Shown: positions 5,109-26,741 of the stretch, piece by piece
Layout of the letters: each line of letters opens with the position of its first letter
Position numbering within the stretch: the stretch's first letter is position 1
DNA from: Paludibacter propionicigenes
GTDB taxonomy: Bacteria > Bacteroidota > Bacteroidia > Bacteroidales > JAFGXI01
Direction: 5' to 3'
Assembly (NCBI GenBank): GCA_020721655.1
Contig: DYMG01000027.1
Span: 1-32,011 of the forward strand
Length of the DNA stretch: 32,011 nucleotides
The notes under the pieces: generated by a model
The model's input: the letters and a program-made list of their open reading frames with translations, nothing else
What the model was told of the DNA's origin: nothing
Databases searched by the model: none
Made by a program: the position numbers and the translations under genes

Positions 5109-5143
5109 AAAAAAAACGATGCTAATAATTAAATAGCATCGTT
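5109..5143 (-). terminator. Terminator of the PqqD-like/ATP-grasp/decarboxylase operon
   Basis: A perfect 10-bp stem, AACGATGCTA (5115-5124) with TAGCATCGTT (5134-5143), carries a run of eight A immediately to its left. On the minus strand this becomes a stem followed by a T-run. It lies 21 bases after the stop of the decarboxylase gene. Confidence 0.88.
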
Positions 5144-5163: not shown

Positions 5164-6510
5164 TTATTTTAAATGTTCTGGTATTATTTCATTTGCAGAA
5201 ACATTGTTCATAGTTTCGGCTTTTCGCACAATATTTACGTTTCCTTTTAAATCTATCATAACAATATTTGGTCGTAGTGTAATAAATTGCATCCATTGAG
5301 TCATATTGTATGCACCTATTCTGCTAATAACAAAATTATCGCCTTTTTTAAGCAGTGGAAATTCTATGCTTTCACGAATTACATCAATATTCATACAAAG
5401 AGGTCCGTACATTTTTGTTATTTCCGTATGATGCGAAAAACTTTGTGCTGGTGTAATTTTATGGTCGTACCAGAAAGATGTAAATAGCATATTTACGCCA
5501 ACATCAAGTATCATTGTTTTAGTGCCATCTGCCAATCGTTTATTAGCAAGCACAGTTCCTGCAATAGAGCCTGCATCGTCAATTAGTGCACGCCCGGTTT
5601 CTAGAATAAGTGTTGGTAGGTTTTCCGGTTTTATTGCAGAGCGAAGTAAAGCCGAGGTTATTGAGTTTGCGTATTCGTCGAAACTTGGAGTTGTATCGGT
5701 TCCGGGTAAGTAAGCCCCTTTTAAGGTGTTTTTTGATGCAAATCCTCCACCCATATCAATATATTTTATTACGTGGTTGTATTTTATGTATAGTTGCGAT
5801 GCTAAATCGGCAAGTTTAGTTGCTGCAACACCGTATGCACTCGCAATCATTACGTAAGTGCCAATATGTGAGTGCAATCCAATTAAATCTATTTTACCAG
5901 ATACCATAATTCTATTAAGGGCATCCCAAGCCTCTCCATTTTCGTAATTAAATCCAAAACGTGTCCATTGTGGGAAAATTCCGGTATCCATATTCACTCT
6001 AATAGCAACTTTTGGGCGTTCGGAAATTGTTCCGGTAAGTTCAATAATTGAGTATAGTTCGTCGAAATGGTCTATATGAATTAACGACCCATTTTTTATT
6101 GCTTTTGTTAAATCTTGCACAGATTTATCGGGACCGTTAAATATTATTTTAGTTGGTTCAACTCCATTTGCTATTGCTTTATCGTATTCGAATCCGGAAA
6201 CAACTTCTGCCCACGAGCCTTCTGAATGATATACTTTACAAACTGCATTTAAGTAATTTGTTTTATAAGACCATGCAAATTGCACTTTTGGGTATTTAGT
6301 AGAAAATGCACGATAAGCATCTTGATATGTATCTCGTATTGTTTTTTCCGAAATTATAAAACAAGGAGAACCATAATCTTTAATTATATCTTTAATTAAC
6401 ACATTGTCAATGTCAGAAATTATTTGAGTTGTAGAACGCATACCAAATTTGCTTGGCATTCCGGTTTCAATTCTCTTTATTGCGGGACGTTCGAATTGTA
6501 ATTTTTCCAT
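5164..6510 (-). CDS. Fold-type III PLP decarboxylase-like enzyme (DAP/ornithine decarboxylase family)
   Basis: A 448-residue cytoplasmic PLP enzyme of the alanine racemase/diaminopimelate decarboxylase fold. The barrel carries the Schiff-base lysine in FAWSYKTNYL (K83), IGLHSHIGTY (about 210-219), the phosphate-binding MGGGF (253-257) and the ETGR motif (304-307). The C-terminal beta domain keeps YGPLCMNIDV with Cys372 and Asp376, equivalent to the catalytic Cys and Asp of decarboxylases. GAYNMTQW with Tyr401 follows. These residues argue for a decarboxylase rather than a racemase. It is probably not the lysine-pathway LysA: it is somewhat long, has a distinctive N-terminal extension and sits in an operon with an ATP-grasp ligase and a PqqD-like protein. 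It starts 23 bases after the ligase gene and is followed by a strong terminator. The substrate is unknown. Confidence 0.85.
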   Translation of the reverse strand: MEKLQFERPAIKRIETGMPSKFGMRSTTQIISDIDNVLIKDIIKDYGSPCFIISEKTIRDTYQDAYRAFSTKYPKVQFAWSYKTNYLNAVCKVYHSEGSWAEVVSGFEYDKAIANGVEPTKIIFNGPDKSVQDLTKAIKNGSLIHIDHFDELYSIIELTGTISERPKVAIRVNMDTGIFPQWTRFGFNYENGEAWDALNRIMVSGKIDLIGLHSHIGTYVMIASAYGVAATKLADLASQLYIKYNHVIKYIDMGGGFASKNTLKGAYLPGTDTTPSFDEYANSITSALLRSAIKPENLPTLILETGRALIDDAGSIAGTVLANKRLADGTKTMILDVGVNMLFTSFWYDHKITPAQSFSHHTEITKMYGPLCMNIDVIRESIEFPLLKKGDNFVISRIGAYNMTQWMQFITLRPNIVMIDLKGNVNIVRKAETMNNVSANEIIPEHLK

Positions 6511-6533
6511 AATAATATTTTTATTTTGTTATT

Positions 6534-7580
6534 TTAAAGTTCACCATTAATTGATAGTAGTTGAAATTTATTGATGTCGGTTATTAAATCGTATGAGTAG
6601 CGAATAAACATTTTACCAATTTCGTAAGATGTAAATGGTTTTACGTTTTCGCCTAAAGCCAAACGAACTAACGCTTCGGGTAGGTTTTGTCCGGCACCAA
6701 CTGCAAGGTAAACCCAAGCTGGTATTCGTGGATTTATTTCAATAATGTAGTATTCGTTTTCTGTTGTTTTAATCATTTCCATTTCCATACCTCCAGCCCA
6801 TTTTGTTTTAGATATTAGGTCTTTGGTAATTTCTAACATTTTATTGTCGGATAGGGTAATTCCAGCCCATGCTTTTCCCTTATCGGTAATAAATTGCTTA
6901 CGCATAGGAACTGCACCAATAGTTTCACCTTTACCATTACCAAGAGCTATTACATTTACTTCGGTGCCTTGTATAAATTCTTGAATTATTACCGGAACTC
7001 CCCATTTAGAAGATAATTTATTAAATTGAGTAATAACTTGCTCTGCCGAATAGCATACGTAAGCATCATAAAATTTACCCTTTACCAAAACAGGGTATGT
7101 AAATTCTTTATCTATAGTATATATTTCACTAAGGTTAGAAATTGTAATACTTTTTGGTATTTTTAAGCCATATTTTTTGCCATATTCGGGTAAATTGGCT
7201 TTATGTCGTTCTTCAAACTGCTCTAAAGTTGGCATAAATGTATGAATACCCATTTGTTTTAACCGCGAAGCAGATTTCATAAAAGTATATAATTCTGCAT
7301 CAAAATTTGGGATTAAAACATCAATATGTTCCTTGCTTGTTATGTATTCTAAGCGTTTTAAAAGTTCGTCGGTTCCTAAACTAGGGTATGGCAAACTATA
7401 CACTTTATCGGCAATGTTTTCCATATATATACCCGGTTCTAAGTTTTCGTAAGCTAAACCTATTATTCGCACATCAAAATAGTCGCTTTCTAAAAGAGCT
7501 CTAATAACTGGCACACCAGGTCCCGGATTGTCGGTATTATTGAGTCCGGTAACTGCTACTGTAATTTTTTTTCGTTCCAT
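6534..7580 (-). CDS. ATP-grasp carboxylate-amine ligase, CarB/PylC-like
   Basis: A 348-residue cytoplasmic ATP-grasp enzyme. The N-terminal Rossmann-like preATP-grasp domain (about 1-110) starts KITVAVTGLNNTDNPGPG. The ATP-grasp core (about 115-315) shows the ATP-binding lysine in YPVLVKGKF (K167), the VIIQEFIQGTEVN hinge (198-209) and the Mg-binding YIIEINPRIPAW (278-289, with E281, N283 and R285). The tail GAGQNLPEALVRLALGE is typical of CarB-like subunits. Such enzymes activate a carboxylate as acyl phosphate and join it to an amine. It starts 6 bases after the PqqD-like gene and is followed after 23 bases by the decarboxylase, so the three are surely co-transcribed. I infer a peptide or amino-acid modification pathway; the substrates cannot be read from sequence. 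Confidence 0.87.
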   Translation of the reverse strand: MERKKITVAVTGLNNTDNPGPGVPVIRALLESDYFDVRIIGLAYENLEPGIYMENIADKVYSLPYPSLGTDELLKRLEYITSKEHIDVLIPNFDAELYTFMKSASRLKQMGIHTFMPTLEQFEERHKANLPEYGKKYGLKIPKSITISNLSEIYTIDKEFTYPVLVKGKFYDAYVCYSAEQVITQFNKLSSKWGVPVIIQEFIQGTEVNVIALGNGKGETIGAVPMRKQFITDKGKAWAGITLSDNKMLEITKDLISKTKWAGGMEMEMIKTTENEYYIIEINPRIPAWVYLAVGAGQNLPEALVRLALGENVKPFTSYEIGKMFIRYSYDLITDINKFQLLSINGEL

Positions 7581-7586
7581 AAAAAC

Positions 7587-7826
7587 TTACTCTGTAAGGT
7601 TATAGTCTATAATCATTTTTTCGAAATCGGAAATACTTTTTTCCAACTCAAACTCTGTTACATTATATTTTTTAATAAGTGTTTTCATTATTTCTTCTTT
7701 CGATTTGGTTTCTCGATATAATTTTAAAATTTCTACACCAATTGTATTTAGTGAGAAACTTTCGCCACTAACAGGGTTAAATACAAAACCTGTATCGCTT
7801 ATTGCTATGTCTTTTTTTATTTTCAT
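7587..7826 (-). CDS. PqqD-like small protein (RRE fold)
   Basis: A 79-residue protein with the PqqD/RRE pattern: an N-terminal beta-hairpin (about 5-27, IAISDTGFVFNPVSGESFSL), then helices beginning NTIGVEILKLYRETKSKEEIM and ending LEKSISDFEKMI. PqqD-like domains normally bind a precursor peptide and present it to a modifying enzyme. It is the first gene of the operon with the ATP-grasp ligase and the decarboxylase. No RiPP precursor gene is visible nearby. The protein ends in Glu (NLTE), which leaves open that it is itself a carrier or substrate, as amino-group carrier proteins are for ATP-grasp ligases. That idea is inference. The ATG at 7826 is the natural start; no clear promoter motif is visible upstream. 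Confidence 0.83.
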   Translation of the reverse strand: MKIKKDIAISDTGFVFNPVSGESFSLNTIGVEILKLYRETKSKEEIMKTLIKKYNVTEFELEKSISDFEKMIIDYNLTE

Positions 7827-7951: not shown

Positions 7952-9352
7952 ATGGCTATAAATAAATTTTTCAGTTTTTTTCTTTTAGTAATATTAATTT
8001 CTTTAAATAACAATATGAAAGCTCAACAAACAATAAGCGAAAAAGAATTACAAGAAATAAAAAAAGGCTACGATGCTAACAATAGCTATCTAAAAGCTGT
8101 TACAAATGCTGTATCGAATAACGATATTAGAGATTTAGCATTGAACCGCAAAAATGTTGGTATTGTTGATGGCGACTTTAAATATAAAGTTAGTGTTAAG
8201 GGTATTACAGACCAGAAAAGTTCTGGACGTTGCTGGATGTTTACCGGATTAAACGTTTTGCGTCCAAAAGTTCAAGATGTTTTTAATGTAAACGAGTTTT
8301 ATTTTTCGCAGAACTATTTGTATTTCTGGGATATTTTAGAAAAATCGAATTTATTTTTAGAGCAAATTTTAGTTACAGCCAATAAAGATATTGATAGTAG
8401 AGAGGTAAATCATTATTTTAAAAATCCGGTTAATGATGGAGGTGTTTGGAATTCGCTATCAAATGTAATTACCAAATACGGTGCAGTTCCACAAAGTGTA
8501 ATGCCCGAAACAAATTCGAGCAATAACACTTCAGCAATGATAAACATTATAAACACAAAATTACGCGAAGATGGCTTATTGCTTAGAGACGAAATGAATA
8601 AAGGAAACAAGGGTGTTAGAAATATTAAAATAAAAATGCTTGCCGATATTTATAAAATTCTTGCCATTAATTTAGGCGAACCACCAACAGAATTTATGTG
8701 GCGTTTTACCGATAAAGACGGCAAAACATCTGAATATAAAAAATACACCCCTAAAACCTTTTTTAACGAAGCGGTTTTAGATTTCGACCAAAATAACTAC
8801 GTTCTTTTTATGAACGACCCAACCAGAGAATATTACAAACTATATGAAATTGATATGGATAGAAATATTCAAGAAGGATTAAATTGGAAATATATTAATC
8901 TGCCTGCCAACGACATAAAAAAAATGGCTATTGAAAGCCTAAAAAATAATGATGCAATGTATGCTTCGTGCGATGTTGGAAAACAATTAGAAAAAAAATC
9001 GGGAATATTAGACCCAAATAATTTCGATTACGAAAGCCTTTTTAATGTAAAATTTGGAATGGATAAAAAACAACGAATTTTAACTTACGAAAGTGGTTCT
9101 ACTCACGGAATGGCTTTAGTTGCAGTAGATACCGATAATGATGAAAATCCTACAAAATGGATGTTCGAAAATTCATGGGGAAGTGCAAACGGACATAATG
9201 GCTATTTAATTTTTACCGATAATTGGTTCAACGAATATTTATTTAGACTTGTAATACTAAAAAAATATGTTGACCCTAAAACACTAAAAATACTTGAACA
9301 AAAACCTATTCTTTTGCCAGCTTGGGACCCAATGTTTAGTGCCGACGAATAA
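7952..9352 (+). CDS. Exported bleomycin hydrolase/aminopeptidase C-like cysteine peptidase (family C1)
   Basis: A 466-residue papain-fold peptidase of the bleomycin hydrolase/PepC group. The three catalytic residues are visible: Cys94 in KSSGRCWMF, His385 in GSTHGMALV and Asn407 in MFENSWGS. The Asn-Asp-rich middle part and overall length fit PepC-like enzymes. Unlike cytoplasmic PepC, it starts with a hydrophobic signal peptide (about residues 1-24, ending NMKAQ), so it should act in the periplasm or outside. Classical members are aminopeptidases controlled by their C-terminus; here the C-terminus is MFSADE. lipB follows after 8 bases on the same strand. It diverges from the PqqD-like operon, so a link to that system is possible but unproven. 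Confidence 0.9.
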   Translation: MAINKFFSFFLLVILISLNNNMKAQQTISEKELQEIKKGYDANNSYLKAVTNAVSNNDIRDLALNRKNVGIVDGDFKYKVSVKGITDQKSSGRCWMFTGLNVLRPKVQDVFNVNEFYFSQNYLYFWDILEKSNLFLEQILVTANKDIDSREVNHYFKNPVNDGGVWNSLSNVITKYGAVPQSVMPETNSSNNTSAMINIINTKLREDGLLLRDEMNKGNKGVRNIKIKMLADIYKILAINLGEPPTEFMWRFTDKDGKTSEYKKYTPKTFFNEAVLDFDQNNYVLFMNDPTREYYKLYEIDMDRNIQEGLNWKYINLPANDIKKMAIESLKNNDAMYASCDVGKQLEKKSGILDPNNFDYESLFNVKFGMDKKQRILTYESGSTHGMALVAVDTDNDENPTKWMFENSWGSANGHNGYLIFTDNWFNEYLFRLVILKKYVDPKTLKILEQKPILLPAWDPMFSADE

Positions 9353-9360
9353 ACCACTTA

Positions 9361-10053
9361 ATGCAAAACGAAATAAAATATCACAATTTAGGATTATTAA
9401 AATATTCCGAAGTTTGGGCTATTCAAAAAACAATTTTTGACAACAAGGTTAAAGCAAAAGGTCAGAAAATAGTTCCTACAATTGAAAATGATTTATTATT
9501 ATGTGAACACCATCATGTTTATACTTTAGGAAAATCGGGCGAACAAAATAATTTACTTATTAACGATGAGTTTTTAAAATCTATTTCGGCAGAATATTTT
9601 AAAATAGATAGAGGTGGTGATATTACTTATCACGGTCCGGGACAAATTGTAGGATACCCTATTTTAGATTTAGAACAATTTAATATGCTTGCAAAAAAAT
9701 ATATCTATAATTTGGAGCAAGTAATTATTAATGTTTTAAAAGAATATGGAATAAACTCTGAACGATTAGAGGGTGCAACTGGCGTTTGGTTAGATACAAA
9801 CGCACCTTCTAAAACCAGAAAAATTTGTGCAATTGGCGTAAAGGTTAGCCGTTGGGTTTCTATGCACGGATTTGCATTTAATGTAAACACCGATTTAAAT
9901 TATTTTAACTACATAAACCCTTGTGGCTTTACCGAAAAAGGTGTAACCTCTTTAAACAAAGAATTGGGAGAAACTATTGATATTAAAGATGTTACAGTAA
10001 AATTATTACACCATTTTTCAATAATTTTCAATTCAAAATTAATAGGACAATAG
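9361..10053 (+). CDS. lipB: Lipoyl(octanoyl) transferase
   Basis: Transfers the octanoyl group from octanoyl-ACP to the lipoyl domains of 2-oxoacid dehydrogenases and the glycine cleavage H protein, before LipA inserts sulphur. The hallmark RGGDITYHGPGQIVGYP lies at residues 84-100. The catalytic lysine is K154 in RKICAIGVKV, the conserved HGFAFNVN follows at 169-176, and the acyl-carrying Cys188 is in INPCGFTEKGVTSL. Length 230 is normal. It starts 8 bases after the cysteine peptidase gene and is probably translated from the same transcript. A separate lipoate ligase (lplA) lies at 25767-26741. Confidence 0.95.
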   Translation: MQNEIKYHNLGLLKYSEVWAIQKTIFDNKVKAKGQKIVPTIENDLLLCEHHHVYTLGKSGEQNNLLINDEFLKSISAEYFKIDRGGDITYHGPGQIVGYPILDLEQFNMLAKKYIYNLEQVIINVLKEYGINSERLEGATGVWLDTNAPSKTRKICAIGVKVSRWVSMHGFAFNVNTDLNYFNYINPCGFTEKGVTSLNKELGETIDIKDVTVKLLHHFSIIFNSKLIGQ

Positions 10054-21732: not shown

Positions 21733-23019
21733 TTGAAAAAGATTATATTTATACTCCTAATTACATTTAGCATTTATTCAAAATCGCAAGATACTTTGAG
21801 TATTTTTATTCAAAATAAATCATTAGAGCTTATTCAAAATAAAGACTGGAAAGAATTACAAAAATTAGCTTATCTAGCTTTTAACAATGATATTGATACA
21901 TATGAAACAAGAATGATTTTAGGCATAGCCTATTATGAGCAAAAGAAATACAACCTTTCTTTAAAAGAATTCATTTCTGCAAAAAAAATTAGCCACAATG
22001 ATTATGTTGATTTATATATTTACAAATCATACTTATATGGTGGGCACATTTCTGATGCTGAAGAATATACAGAAGAATTATCAGATTCGCTTAAATTGAG
22101 CCTTTCTCTTAAGAAAAGCTCTGTTTTTTATAGCTTATTTATTAATTATGGAAATTCAATAAATACAGATTATAGCGATAAGATTGTTTCAGATTATCCA
22201 GAATCTGAAATTAATGTTTCTTTACAAGACAAATATTCATATATTATCGATTTAAACCTACGTATTCATACTTTACCTCACTATTTTACTACATTTGCTA
22301 TTTCAAAATATATTAAACCTTCTACTAAATACGAAATAAATTCTAACATAACTAAAAAAACAAATGATGAAATTATAGATAACATCTATCATTTTTTAAT
22401 AAATTATGAATCAATTCATAACAAAGCGTATTTTAGAATAATGGGCTCTAACAAAACAGGTTCGCTTTCAGGTGGATTTATATGCGATTTTGACTATATC
22501 GGCTTAGGATTCAGCACGTCTATTTATAATTCTTTTATGTATTCTCATAACAGTGCAGGTATTTATTTTTACCCAAAAGCTAATAGAAATTTTATATTTT
22601 CTTTTGAACCTCAGTTTGAACTAATATTAAACAGACAATTTTCTAATAACAATATAATTACATATAAAAACTCTAATTTATTATATCATTTTAAATTATA
22701 TTCAAACATTAATAAAAAACTAAACATAGAGCTACAATTAGGATTTGGACAAAGTGATATTGCTGCAGAAAATGGTTACCTATCTAATTATGGCAACATG
22801 AACACTATAACACAGTATTACAGAACCAACATAAATTATATGCTTACGTCTAAATTACGATTGTTTGCATCTGCATCATACTTTATCACAAAATTTTCTT
22901 ACAAAGAAACATCTGTTAATAATACTAACTGTTGTTTTTTTGAACACATAACTAATTATAAAACAATTGAAAATATCCCCAATATAAATATAACATTTGG
23001 ATTAATGTGGTATTTCTAA
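21733..23019 (+). CDS. Exported TPR protein with C-terminal outer-membrane beta-barrel
   Basis: A 428-residue protein of unknown role. It starts at TTG (21733); this start is needed to keep the signal peptide (KKIIFILLITFSIYSKSQ), and no upstream ATG serves. About residues 20-115 form helical TPR-like repeats (LIQNKDWKELQKLAYLAF, MILGIAYYEQKKYNLSLKEF). Residues about 165-428 alternate aromatic and polar positions as membrane strands, ending TFGLMWYF with a C-terminal Phe for BAM recognition. The layout resembles YaiO-type outer-membrane proteins with a periplasmic TPR, though I cannot assign it firmly. It stands alone, divergent from the OstA-like gene. Confidence 0.78.
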   Translation: MKKIIFILLITFSIYSKSQDTLSIFIQNKSLELIQNKDWKELQKLAYLAFNNDIDTYETRMILGIAYYEQKKYNLSLKEFISAKKISHNDYVDLYIYKSYLYGGHISDAEEYTEELSDSLKLSLSLKKSSVFYSLFINYGNSINTDYSDKIVSDYPESEINVSLQDKYSYIIDLNLRIHTLPHYFTTFAISKYIKPSTKYEINSNITKKTNDEIIDNIYHFLINYESIHNKAYFRIMGSNKTGSLSGGFICDFDYIGLGFSTSIYNSFMYSHNSAGIYFYPKANRNFIFSFEPQFELILNRQFSNNNIITYKNSNLLYHFKLYSNINKKLNIELQLGFGQSDIAAENGYLSNYGNMNTITQYYRTNINYMLTSKLRLFASASYFITKFSYKETSVNNTNCCFFEHITNYKTIENIPNINITFGLMWYF

Positions 23020-23757: not shown

Positions 23758-24753
23758 TTAAAATCTTTTTCCAAAAAATATTTTAACATTGCTGGTTGAG
23801 GGTTGAATTTTTAGATATTCATAATCATAAGCAGAACCTATAACAAAAGCAGTAATGCCAAAGTAATATTTATTTTTCTCATAGCCTATTGCCATACGCC
23901 CAATATAATTTGTTGCTAAAATTGGTTTCAATTTTAACAATTCGTTTTGCGATTTAATATTAGAACTTACTATTCCTAAACCTGGGGTTAACGATAAATT
24001 TAAGAATAATTTTTTGGCTATTATAAAAGTATAAGTATATCCAAAATTAACCCCATAACTTTTTGATAATATGTGCGATATATTTAAATTAGTGTGCACC
24101 GAATCTGGAATAACCTCAACACCAAACCCTTGGTCATTATTTGCTACATTTAAATTGTAGTACGATCCTAAAACCATACTTCCTTGCCCTTTTTTTTGTA
24201 TTTCATTTCTAATGTAAGCGGCTCTGTAGGAAAACTTTTTATTATTAAAAAAATAATAACCAGATATTCCGGCTGAATATAGTTTCATATTAGGTAATTG
24301 CGGATAAATAGTAAAGGCTGTATCTATATATTGTTGGGCATTACTTATGTAAAAGCCAGTATATTTTTGAAAATGAAAATCAATTCCGTAATTTCTTTGG
24401 TATAAGTTAAGTTGCATATCTAAACGCGATGTTTCGCCGTAAATATCGTTATCGTTATTAGAATATGGCATTTTAAAGGCTATAATGAGAGCTAACCATT
24501 TGTAGTTTATGCCAACGCCAATATTTACTTGTCCGTTTGGAGATAGAACTAAATATTTACCAGTTTCTTTATTTGTTAGTGTTAGGTCGCTTCTTTTTAT
24601 AATATTAACAATACGCAATGATAATTTTTTAGACATATCGCTAACATACAAAGTGTCTGTTTTTTCTTTTTTGTTAGACTTTATGCTATCAGTTTGCGAA
24701 AAAGAAATATTAAAAAATGATATAAAAATTAAAGCAACACTAAATTTGAGCAT
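23758..24753 (-). CDS. DUF4421 outer-membrane barrel protein, copy 2 of a tandem pair
   Basis: A 331-residue exported protein of the DUF4421 family, predicted outer-membrane barrels of Bacteroidota with no known function. The signal peptide covers about 1-19 (ending ISFSQ). The family pattern is seen in LRIVNIIKRSDLTL, SPNGQVNIGVGINYKWLALII, YSAGISGYYFFNNKKFSYRAAY and YGVNFGYTYTFII. It ends FFGKRF, an aromatic C-terminus suited to barrel insertion. It is a close paralogue of the preceding gene: NEIQKKGQGS and IYPQL are identical blocks. Its ATG overlaps the end of that gene by 14 bases, so translation is probably coupled. Confidence 0.83.
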   Translation of the reverse strand: MLKFSVALIFISFFNISFSQTDSIKSNKKEKTDTLYVSDMSKKLSLRIVNIIKRSDLTLTNKETGKYLVLSPNGQVNIGVGINYKWLALIIAFKMPYSNNDNDIYGETSRLDMQLNLYQRNYGIDFHFQKYTGFYISNAQQYIDTAFTIYPQLPNMKLYSAGISGYYFFNNKKFSYRAAYIRNEIQKKGQGSMVLGSYYNLNVANNDQGFGVEVIPDSVHTNLNISHILSKSYGVNFGYTYTFIIAKKLFLNLSLTPGLGIVSSNIKSQNELLKLKPILATNYIGRMAIGYEKNKYYFGITAFVIGSAYDYEYLKIQPSTSNVKIFFGKRF

Positions 24754-25780
24754 TTTGTTTTGTATTAATTTTTCGTTTTTTCATGCCAAATCGTTTTCCA
24801 AAAAAGAATTTCATGTTACTTGTTGATGGTTGTATTTTAGTTGTTTCGTAGTTATATGCATACCCATTTGCAAATGCTGTTAATCCAAAATAAAAACTTC
24901 TTTTTTCTAAACCAATAGATAGCTTTGCTATATAATTTGTTGATAATAAAGGTTTATTATTAATAGTATTGGTACTTGTAATTATATTAGCTTTTGCAAA
25001 TCCAATACCCGGAGATACAGAAAGATTAATAAAAAATATTTTCCCAATAATAAAAGTATATGTGTAACCAAAATTTAAGCCATAACTTTCTGCCGTAAAA
25101 GATGTTATGTTGAATAGGCTCTTTATAGAGTCTGGGATTATATCTGATGTAAAACCAGTTTTATTTGTAGCAGAATTTATATTGTAGTATGCACCTAAAA
25201 TGATACTTCCTTGCCCTTTTTTTTGTATTTCATTTCTTACATAAGCTGCTTTGTACGAGAATTTTTTATAATTGAATAAATAATATGCCGAAATACCGGC
25301 TGAATATAATTCCATGTCGTTTAATTGTGGATATATTGACATTGTTGTATCGGCATAAATTTTTGCATTGCTAAAATAAAATCCTTTATATTTTTGAAAA
25401 TGAGCATCAAAACCATAGCTTGTCCCATATAAACTAAACTGGAAATCGAATCTATTTGTTTTGCCATAAATGCTATCGTCATTGCTAATTTTATTTATTC
25501 CTAAATCTAAGCCAAAACCAAGCCATTTATAATCGAATTCTAAGCCTAAATCTACTGAATTGTTAGGAGATAGTATAAGCGATTTATTGGTTTCTATATT
25601 CGTAAATATAATATCGCTATTTTTCCAAATATTATAAACTCTTACAGATAAATGGTTTGAAACATTTTCTATATATAACGAGTCTATTTTGCTTTTTTTT
25701 GCTTTTGGTATGGTATCTTTCTGCGAAAAAGCAATATTTATAAGAAAAATACACGCCAAAATTATTTTAAATATGCTCAT
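24740..25780 (-). CDS. DUF4421 outer-membrane barrel protein, copy 1 of a tandem pair
   Basis: A 346-residue exported protein, paralogous to the DUF4421 gene downstream. The signal peptide covers about 1-19 (MSIFKIILACIFLINIAFSQ). Shared features include LSPNNSVDLGLEFDYKWLG, the YSAGISAYYLFNYKKFSYKAAY block, NEIQKKGQGS and LNFGYTYTFIIG. Where the paralogue ends at FFGKRF, this copy continues for 15 residues (GMKKRKINTKQNAQI) into the start of the next gene. Its own ATG overlaps the end of lplA by 14 bases, the same overlap length as at the next junction. This supports an lplA-DUF4421-DUF4421 operon and suggests that the tandem duplication carried the junction with it. Confidence 0.83.
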   Translation of the reverse strand: MSIFKIILACIFLINIAFSQKDTIPKAKKSKIDSLYIENVSNHLSVRVYNIWKNSDIIFTNIETNKSLILSPNNSVDLGLEFDYKWLGFGLDLGINKISNDDSIYGKTNRFDFQFSLYGTSYGFDAHFQKYKGFYFSNAKIYADTTMSIYPQLNDMELYSAGISAYYLFNYKKFSYKAAYVRNEIQKKGQGSIILGAYYNINSATNKTGFTSDIIPDSIKSLFNITSFTAESYGLNFGYTYTFIIGKIFFINLSVSPGIGFAKANIITSTNTINNKPLLSTNYIAKLSIGLEKRSFYFGLTAFANGYAYNYETTKIQPSTSNMKFFFGKRFGMKKRKINTKQNAQI

Positions 25781-26741
25781 TTTTACTGAAAAAACTGTTT
25801 AAAATGTTTTCCAATTGGGTATTTAATTGTTCGCTTATTTTATTTGCTAAAATTATATTTTTTATTGTTATTATATCGTATTTTTTTTGCAAAAATGCGT
25901 CTTTTAACATTTTCAGTTGAATATTTTCGGTGTCAATTTTTGTTATTATGCCATTTTCGACATAAATTTCAAAGTATATGATGTTTGAACCTATTTTTAG
26001 ATTGCTAAATATTTTAAATTTAGGCGAATAATTGTAAATCCAATTTTTGTTATTGTACTTGTTTTTAATGCTAAGGTTTATATTCTCTAAATCTGTTTTT
26101 GTAAGGGTAAATTCCTCATTTATACTATAAGAATTTTTTACAAAATTTTGTAAATTGTTAGTAAATTTAGTTATACTGCTTGTTTTTAGATGATATAACA
26201 AATTAGTTACATCTTTTTTAATCGATTTTATTGCTTTGCTTTCAATTTTAAGTTCGTTTTTAATGGAATTTTCTAAATTAATTAAATTGGAGTTGTAAAG
26301 CAATGTTCCGTGATGTAAAACTCTGTTTTTATAAACGTGTTCGGCATTGCCCGAAATTTTGTTATTATCAATAAATAAGTTATTATGCTCATTGTAATGT
26401 ACATCAATATTTAAGGTTTTCAAAAATTCGTATATCGATTTTGTATGTAGTTTAAAATCAATTTGTTTGCCTTTTTCTTTATTAAAAATGAAAGTGAAAT
26501 TTATATTTCCTTTATCTTGATAAACTGTTCCACCACCGCTTAGTCTTCGTGCAATTTTTATTTTATTTTGTGTTACAAATAATATGTTAATTTCTTCATA
26601 TATATTTTGATGTTTGCCACAAACCAACACATTATTAGTTTGCCATAACATAAAAAATTCGTCGTTAAAATTTTTTAGAAGATATTCTTCTAAAGCTAAA
26701 TAGAAATAGATGCTTTTGTTTTTAATTGATAGAAATTTCAT
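25767..26741 (-). CDS. lplA: Lipoate-protein ligase
   Basis: Activates free lipoate with ATP and attaches it to lipoyl domains. The hallmark is ARRLSGGGTVYQDKGNINFT at residues 64-83; the catalytic lysine is K128 in NKISGNAEH; and HHGTLLYNSNL (143-153) is the conserved strand after it. The C-terminal accessory domain (about 235-324) is present, as in E. coli-type LplA, so it need not use a separate LplB. The protein is cytoplasmic. It is very AT-rich and Asn/Lys-rich, like its neighbours. It is the first gene of an operon with the two DUF4421 genes. Together with lipB at 9361 the cell has both lipoylation routes. Confidence 0.92.
   Translation of the reverse strand: MKFLSIKNKSIYFYLALEEYLLKNFNDEFFMLWQTNNVLVCGKHQNIYEEINILFVTQNKIKIARRLSGGGTVYQDKGNINFTFIFNKEKGKQIDFKLHTKSIYEFLKTLNIDVHYNEHNNLFIDNNKISGNAEHVYKNRVLHHGTLLYNSNLINLENSIKNELKIESKAIKSIKKDVTNLLYHLKTSSITKFTNNLQNFVKNSYSINEEFTLTKTDLENINLSIKNKYNNKNWIYNYSPKFKIFSNLKIGSNIIYFEIYVENGIITKIDTENIQLKMLKDAFLQKKYDIITIKNIILANKISEQLNTQLENILNSFFSKNEHI

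Follow-up and report, generated by a model that had tools for sequence, protein, structure and literature searches.

Which pathway a PqqD-like protein, an ATP-grasp ligase and a fold-III PLP decarboxylase could serve together is the question raised by a compact locus in a 32,011-nucleotide stretch of DNA (the window) from an uncultured Bacteroidota bacterium. The initial annotation had listed three genes separated by gaps of 6 and 23 bases and followed by one terminator, and had proposed that a peptide or carrier-bound amino acid is ligated and that an amine is made by decarboxylation. Our coordinates confirm the three ORFs, all on the minus strand, together with both gaps, and Pfam backs the PqqD, ATP-grasp and fold-III PLP classes. 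The terminator was found by reading the sequence, as a hairpin (5143-5115) with a 10 bp stem (5143-5134/5124-5115) and a 9-nt loop followed by a T run; it is absent from the automatic scan because its loop exceeds the scanner limit of 8 nt. The features of the window that matter here are the following:

7587..7826, minus strand: PqqD-like protein of 79 aa with an RRE-type fold (Pfam PqqD, and position 5′ of the ligase gene in relatives)
6534..7580, minus strand: ATP-grasp ligase of 348 aa with K167, E281, N283 and R285 intact (Pfam, profile, alignment)
5164..6510, minus strand: fold-III PLP decarboxylase of 448 aa, FigC/FslC-like and not LysA (Pfam, NCBIfam, tree)
5109..5143, minus strand: Rho-independent terminator-like hairpin 3′ of the PLP gene (read from the sequence)
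21733..23019, plus strand: tentative diverged homologue of the operon's outer-membrane TPR/beta-barrel protein (profile match, 14 kb from the operon)

Elsewhere in the window, a secreted C1-like (Peptidase_C1_2) peptidase is encoded at 7952-9352, divergently from the operon, and is not a conserved neighbour in relatives. Two genes of the lipoyl ligase/transferase family (LplA-B_cat) lie at 9361-10053 and 25767-26741, and a tandem pair coding for related secreted proteins, at least one of them with DUF4421, occupies 23758-25780.

Conservation of the operon and its fourth partner

A genome scan with the ligase yielded 167 related stretches, the best 80 of which were kept; these come mostly from Bacteroidales and other Bacteroidota, and some of the records are labelled Balneolaceae, Chlorobi/Chlorobiota or Kapabacteria. 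Among these best 80, the PqqD-like gene is directly upstream of the ligase gene in all 75 assessable loci and the PLP gene directly downstream of it in 72 of 73, and a PqqD-like gene precedes the ligase gene in 12 of 13 further loci. The order is mostly kept in diverged copies as well, in which the ligase is 39-45% identical. Such conservation across relatives excludes a chance arrangement, and the three genes, whose separation in related genomes would have refuted the initial annotation, stay together as a genuine functional unit.

The unit is larger than the three genes first recognised. In 59 of 62 assessable loci (again among the best 80 of 167), the gene next after the PLP gene encodes a protein of ~730 aa that begins with a urea-transporter (UT) domain and ends with a peptidase M23 domain at its C-terminus, here called UT-M23. 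Co-inheritance of these genes is observed, as is their usual order on one strand, PqqD-ligase-PLP-UT-M23. In the genome of the window, UT-M23 is encoded away from the locus, on another contig (C86, 9685-11856), so that the earlier statement that no transporter is present holds for this locus but not for the genome, which has this membrane partner elsewhere. Across a sample of 296 Bacteroidota genomes, with strong matches taken as E <1e-80 for the ligase, E up to 1e-70 for the PLP enzyme and E up to 1e-50 for UT-M23 and with the resulting sets compared by eye, the three proteins turn up in one identical set of 27 genomes, belonging to 22 genera, and are absent from the other 269. Because the genomes are related, these 27 co-occurrences are not 27 independent events. 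The association nevertheless holds where the genes lie on separate contigs (genomes G000, G001 and G031), in G031 even on three different ones, and since the genes have been retained together after linkage was lost, a functional bond between them is very likely. Among the 41 closest relatives, too, the proteins almost always occur together; G021 and G027, the only two exceptions, are at contig ends. We are close to certain that the PqqD-like protein, the ligase, the PLP decarboxylase and UT-M23 work together. One 3.74 Mb contig (G164:C1) carries the operon region at both ends with identical match scores (loci L084 and L085), which probably represents the overlap of an unclosed circular chromosome and not a duplication.

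The UT domain of UT-M23 scores well above the Pfam cut-off (PF03253; 199 vs 25 bits) and below that of the Yut equivalog TIGR03441 (113 vs 274.6 bits). A model of the protein from the window genome (pLDDT 92.1) is matched by Foldseek to the Desulfovibrio urea transporter dvUT (3k3f; E 7e-15) and, separately, to LytM/M23 domains. The N-terminal half shares with dvUT the UT fold and the first pore Gln/Phe; unlike dvUT, it reads SLGAIFFQ instead of GEVMFQ in the second pore motif, with Ala in place of Glu187, and it is fused to the M23 metallopeptidase and another, beta-rich domain. In the M23 domain, the residues for metal binding and catalysis (H375, D384, H459, H492 and H494) do not vary among 58 sequences. 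Both termini of urea transporters are cytosolic, and the loop charges of UT-M23 agree with this N-in/C-in topology, for which reasons we predict a cytosolic M23 domain, an unusual situation for M23. At one locus (L093), the UT and M23 halves are encoded by two separate, overlapping ORFs (G045:C1:2246033-2248164).

Two envelope proteins usually follow UT-M23, first a secreted outer-membrane TPR/barrel-like protein and then a TPR protein. The product of 21733..23019 in the window matches a profile of 58 operon members of the former, itself excluded, with 102.7 bits (E 6.4e-32), and may tentatively be regarded, from its sequence, as a diverged homologue. Upstream neighbours vary. The commonest is an AraC regulator whose N-terminal part contains Cys, on the same strand in ~31 of 80 loci (shortly upstream of the operon at L025:7044-7634, L048:5681-6271, L063:7083-7673 and ~30 other loci), the second commonest is a DUF2202 protein (13 loci), and metal RND or CDF pumps, recognised by eye from the sequence, stand beside a few loci. 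These neighbours hint at metal stress; neither the regulator nor the DUF2202 protein nor a pump is present in the window. Genes inserted into the operon at single loci encode T9SS-tailed, acyltransferase-like membrane and multicopper-oxidase-like proteins and show no consistent theme.

Relatives of the decarboxylase, the ligase and the PqqD-like protein

The PLP enzyme matches the Pfam families Orn_Arg_deC_N (3e-29) and Orn_DAP_Arg_deC (1.3e-10) and carries the motifs WSYKTN, ETGRALIDDAG, LFTSFWY, GPLCMNID and GAYNMTQW. Its residues K83, C372, D376 and Y401 align with positions conserved in at least 97% of 74 homologues, and the same level of conservation applies to the four ligase residues listed above among 81 homologues; the initial annotation had numbered all of them correctly. 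It had also allowed that the decarboxylase might prove to be the sole LysA of the organism. Identity as LysA, or as a polyamine decarboxylase, was ruled out by cut-off, substrate residues and coexistence with a true LysA. The superfamily and the catalytic residues are shared with LysA, but the score against the LysA model TIGR01048 (193 bits, or 192.5 in the genome search) misses the curated cut-off of 297.9, and the LysA motifs LIRP and CESSD read LFTS and CMNID, with Thr344 and Met373 replacing the DAP-contact Arg and the CESSD Glu. In DAP decarboxylase, R343 binds the distal (second) carboxylate of DAP (PMC7857480). The DAP-contact residues are missing in all operon copies examined and present in the LysA of the same genomes, and 28 genomes have a LysA above the cut-off in addition to the operon enzyme, 23 of 26 from the phylum and 5 of relatives. 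In the six genomes of the window's own family (f1, G000-G005; 90-99% complete), all of which have the operon enzyme, the search yielded no LysA above the cut-off; these bacteria may be either lysine auxotrophs or equipped with a replaced final step.

The closest characterised homologue is instead the N-citrylornithine decarboxylase FigC/FslC of rhizoferrin synthesis (PDB 7kh2; PMC7857480). The FslC/FigC model NF041039 is the best in NCBIfam, at 236 bits and thus under its curated cut-off of 500, and 7kh2 is the best solved relative with 204 bits, compared with 124 for the best LysA. In a tree with weak support for some of its deeper branches, the operon enzymes group as a single clade on the FigC branch, apart from the LysA of the same genomes. 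FigC, SbnH, AcsE, MccE and BtrK constitute, with the DAP decarboxylases, one clade whose members for the most part have conjugated amino acids as substrates (PMC7857480). Common to FigC and the operon enzyme are W-x-RFGF, the Cys-Met in the CMxxD loop and the GAYN motif. In FigC, Met follows the catalytic Cys, and H357 and R387 contact the citryl group (PMC7857480); in the operon enzyme, the equivalents of the latter two are Ile375 and Gln405. Judged by these residues, the operon enzyme resembles FigC yet is unlikely to bind citrate, and because the citrate contacts are replaced, the distal group of its substrate may be more neutral than citrate. By analogy with FigC, we propose that it acts on a conjugated amino acid, although its partner, unlike that of FigC/FslC, is an ATP-grasp ligase.

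The ligase matches Pfam ATP-grasp families with E down to 4e-10. When the model of a homologue was submitted to Foldseek, 2pn1 came first, followed by biotin carboxylase, GAR synthetase and RizA. Since the relatives by sequence and fold are thus only generic ATP-grasp proteins (2pn1, of unknown function, biotin carboxylases, GAR synthetases and the L-amino-acid ligase RizA), amide formation by this ligase is something that we infer. The small PqqD-like protein is above the gathering cut-off of Pfam PqqD (PF05402; E 1.6e-7, 32.0 vs 23.4 bits) and below that of the PQQ PqqD model TIGR03859 (15.6 vs 46 bits). Comparison of homologues revealed a conserved N-terminal hairpin region, with the motif (n)IAxSxxGFxFxPxxGxSxxxN, and a C-terminus variable in both length and sequence. 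This variability speaks against a LysW-type carrier loaded at its end; a LysW-like role was rejected on these grounds. A joined model of PqqD-like protein and ligase (locus L072, reading through the intervening stop; pLDDT 85.8, pTM 0.75) is uninformative on the interface.

A known parallel to this pairing of enzymes is butirosin synthesis, where BtrK, together with BtrJ and the carrier BtrI, achieves fold-III PLP decarboxylation of a previously attached amino acid. BtrJ is an ATP-grasp ligase. Unlike butirosin synthesis, no acyl carrier protein was found in the cluster, the only small conserved protein being the PqqD-like one, which has no carrier-type C-terminus, and the set includes UT-M23.

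A possible pathway and its alternatives

We propose that Bacteroidota and relatives possess a dedicated pathway, as yet uncharacterised, whose cytosolic part is encoded by the three genes, and we would give the mechanism as a whole an even chance of being right. Because the set is inherited as one unit in many bacteria, it probably represents a real pathway that makes and handles a small amine. Going by what is known of the families, the ligase would spend ATP to activate a carboxylate and would couple this to an amine, so that an amino acid with a conjugated far end results, and the FigC-like enzyme would then strip the alpha-carboxylate off the conjugate to leave a primary amine. The PqqD-like protein may be an adaptor docking on the ligase or on its substrate. 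The UT-like channel, with its pore Glu changed to Ala, could pass the small product or a precursor, the predicted cytosolic M23 domain might hydrolyse or trim an amide or peptide of the same pathway, and the outer-membrane and TPR proteins may provide the rest of the way through the envelope. We assume an order for the two reactions; ligation before decarboxylation appears to be the most economical reading since FigC, SbnH and BtrK decarboxylate a conjugate (PMC7857480). Speaking for this model are the kept gene order, the 27/27/27 co-occurrence, the position of the PLP enzyme on the FigC side, the conserved catalytic residues, the invariant M23 residues and the UT fold. Against it, ATP-grasp enzymes are not all amide-forming, and the fold neighbours suggested by the structural model include bicarbonate-using members; moreover, the solutes that pass UT-like channels are very small and neutral, and there might be no room for a conjugated amine.

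A RiPP pathway, which we regard as unlikely, would have the PqqD-like RRE present a ribosomal peptide encoded elsewhere, which the ATP-grasp enzyme would modify or extend; the PLP enzyme would, like MccE in microcin C, decarboxylate a modified residue, and M23 would remove the leader. This account is in keeping with the RRE fold of PqqD, with the place of MccE in the same PLP clade (PMC7857480) and with a peptidase belonging to the system, and graspetide and PqqD/RRE peptide systems share with the operon an ATP-grasp enzyme and an RRE-type protein. Unlike them, however, the operon has no radical SAM enzyme, and no conserved small ORF that could encode a precursor peptide was found near it in 81 loci; the ligase is far under the grasp-with-spasm ligase model (13.8 vs 230 bits), which represents this class of graspetides only, and export of a peptide through a urea-type channel is unlikely. 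The view of the initial annotation that this is not a standard RiPP cluster is upheld; its suggestion of a peptide substrate found no supporting evidence, given that no conserved small ORF was found at these loci.

The relationship of the PLP enzyme to DAP decarboxylase, and the usual role of M23 domains as wall hydrolases, would alternatively suit a cell-wall pathway, in which the ligase and the PLP enzyme act on diaminopimelate-containing peptides and M23 cuts wall-derived peptides. We consider this quite improbable, as the equivalent of R343, for the second DAP carboxylate, and the CESSD Glu are Thr344 and Met373, and as M23 is predicted from UT homology and loop charge to be cytosolic. Little probability attaches also to the making and export of an amide-linked amine ligand as a metal chelator or metallophore. 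The nearest characterised PLP relative does make part of a siderophore, and the loci often stand beside the AraC regulator, DUF2202 or, sometimes, metal pumps; but these neighbours vary and none is in the window, the neighbours seen to be conserved include neither a TonB receptor nor a siderophore synthetase, and the citrate contacts of FigC are missing. Ordinary lysine or polyamine metabolism, with the PLP enzyme as the organism's diaminopimelate or basic-amino-acid decarboxylase, would fit the six genomes of the window's family in which no LysA above the cut-off was found, but is very improbable indeed given the score of 192.5 bits, the many genomes with a LysA besides, the altered substrate residues in every operon copy examined and the strict tie to UT-M23.

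Returning to the conjugate pathway, no description of such a system was found in the open CC-licensed literature on ATP-grasp, PqqD, decarboxylase and UT/M23 combinations. Its parts are of known kinds, the combination is apparently new, and the system seems undescribed in the open literature searched. It is conceivable, and we put it forward tentatively as somewhat short of probable, that the system is a new natural-product or osmolyte route, in which a PqqD-type adaptor, the ATP-grasp ligase and a decarboxylase specific for conjugates would together produce a small amine, and a modified urea channel equipped with its own cytosolic metallopeptidase would let this amine through. If true, this route would escape the mining rules for both RiPPs and siderophores. 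About 9% of a broad Bacteroidota sample (27/296) carries the ligase, the decarboxylase and UT-M23, always together, and the set therefore very likely reflects a real pathway in common environmental bacteria. The fusion of a urea channel with a metallopeptidase, an unusual architecture, thereby gains a strong functional partner, which makes its role testable.
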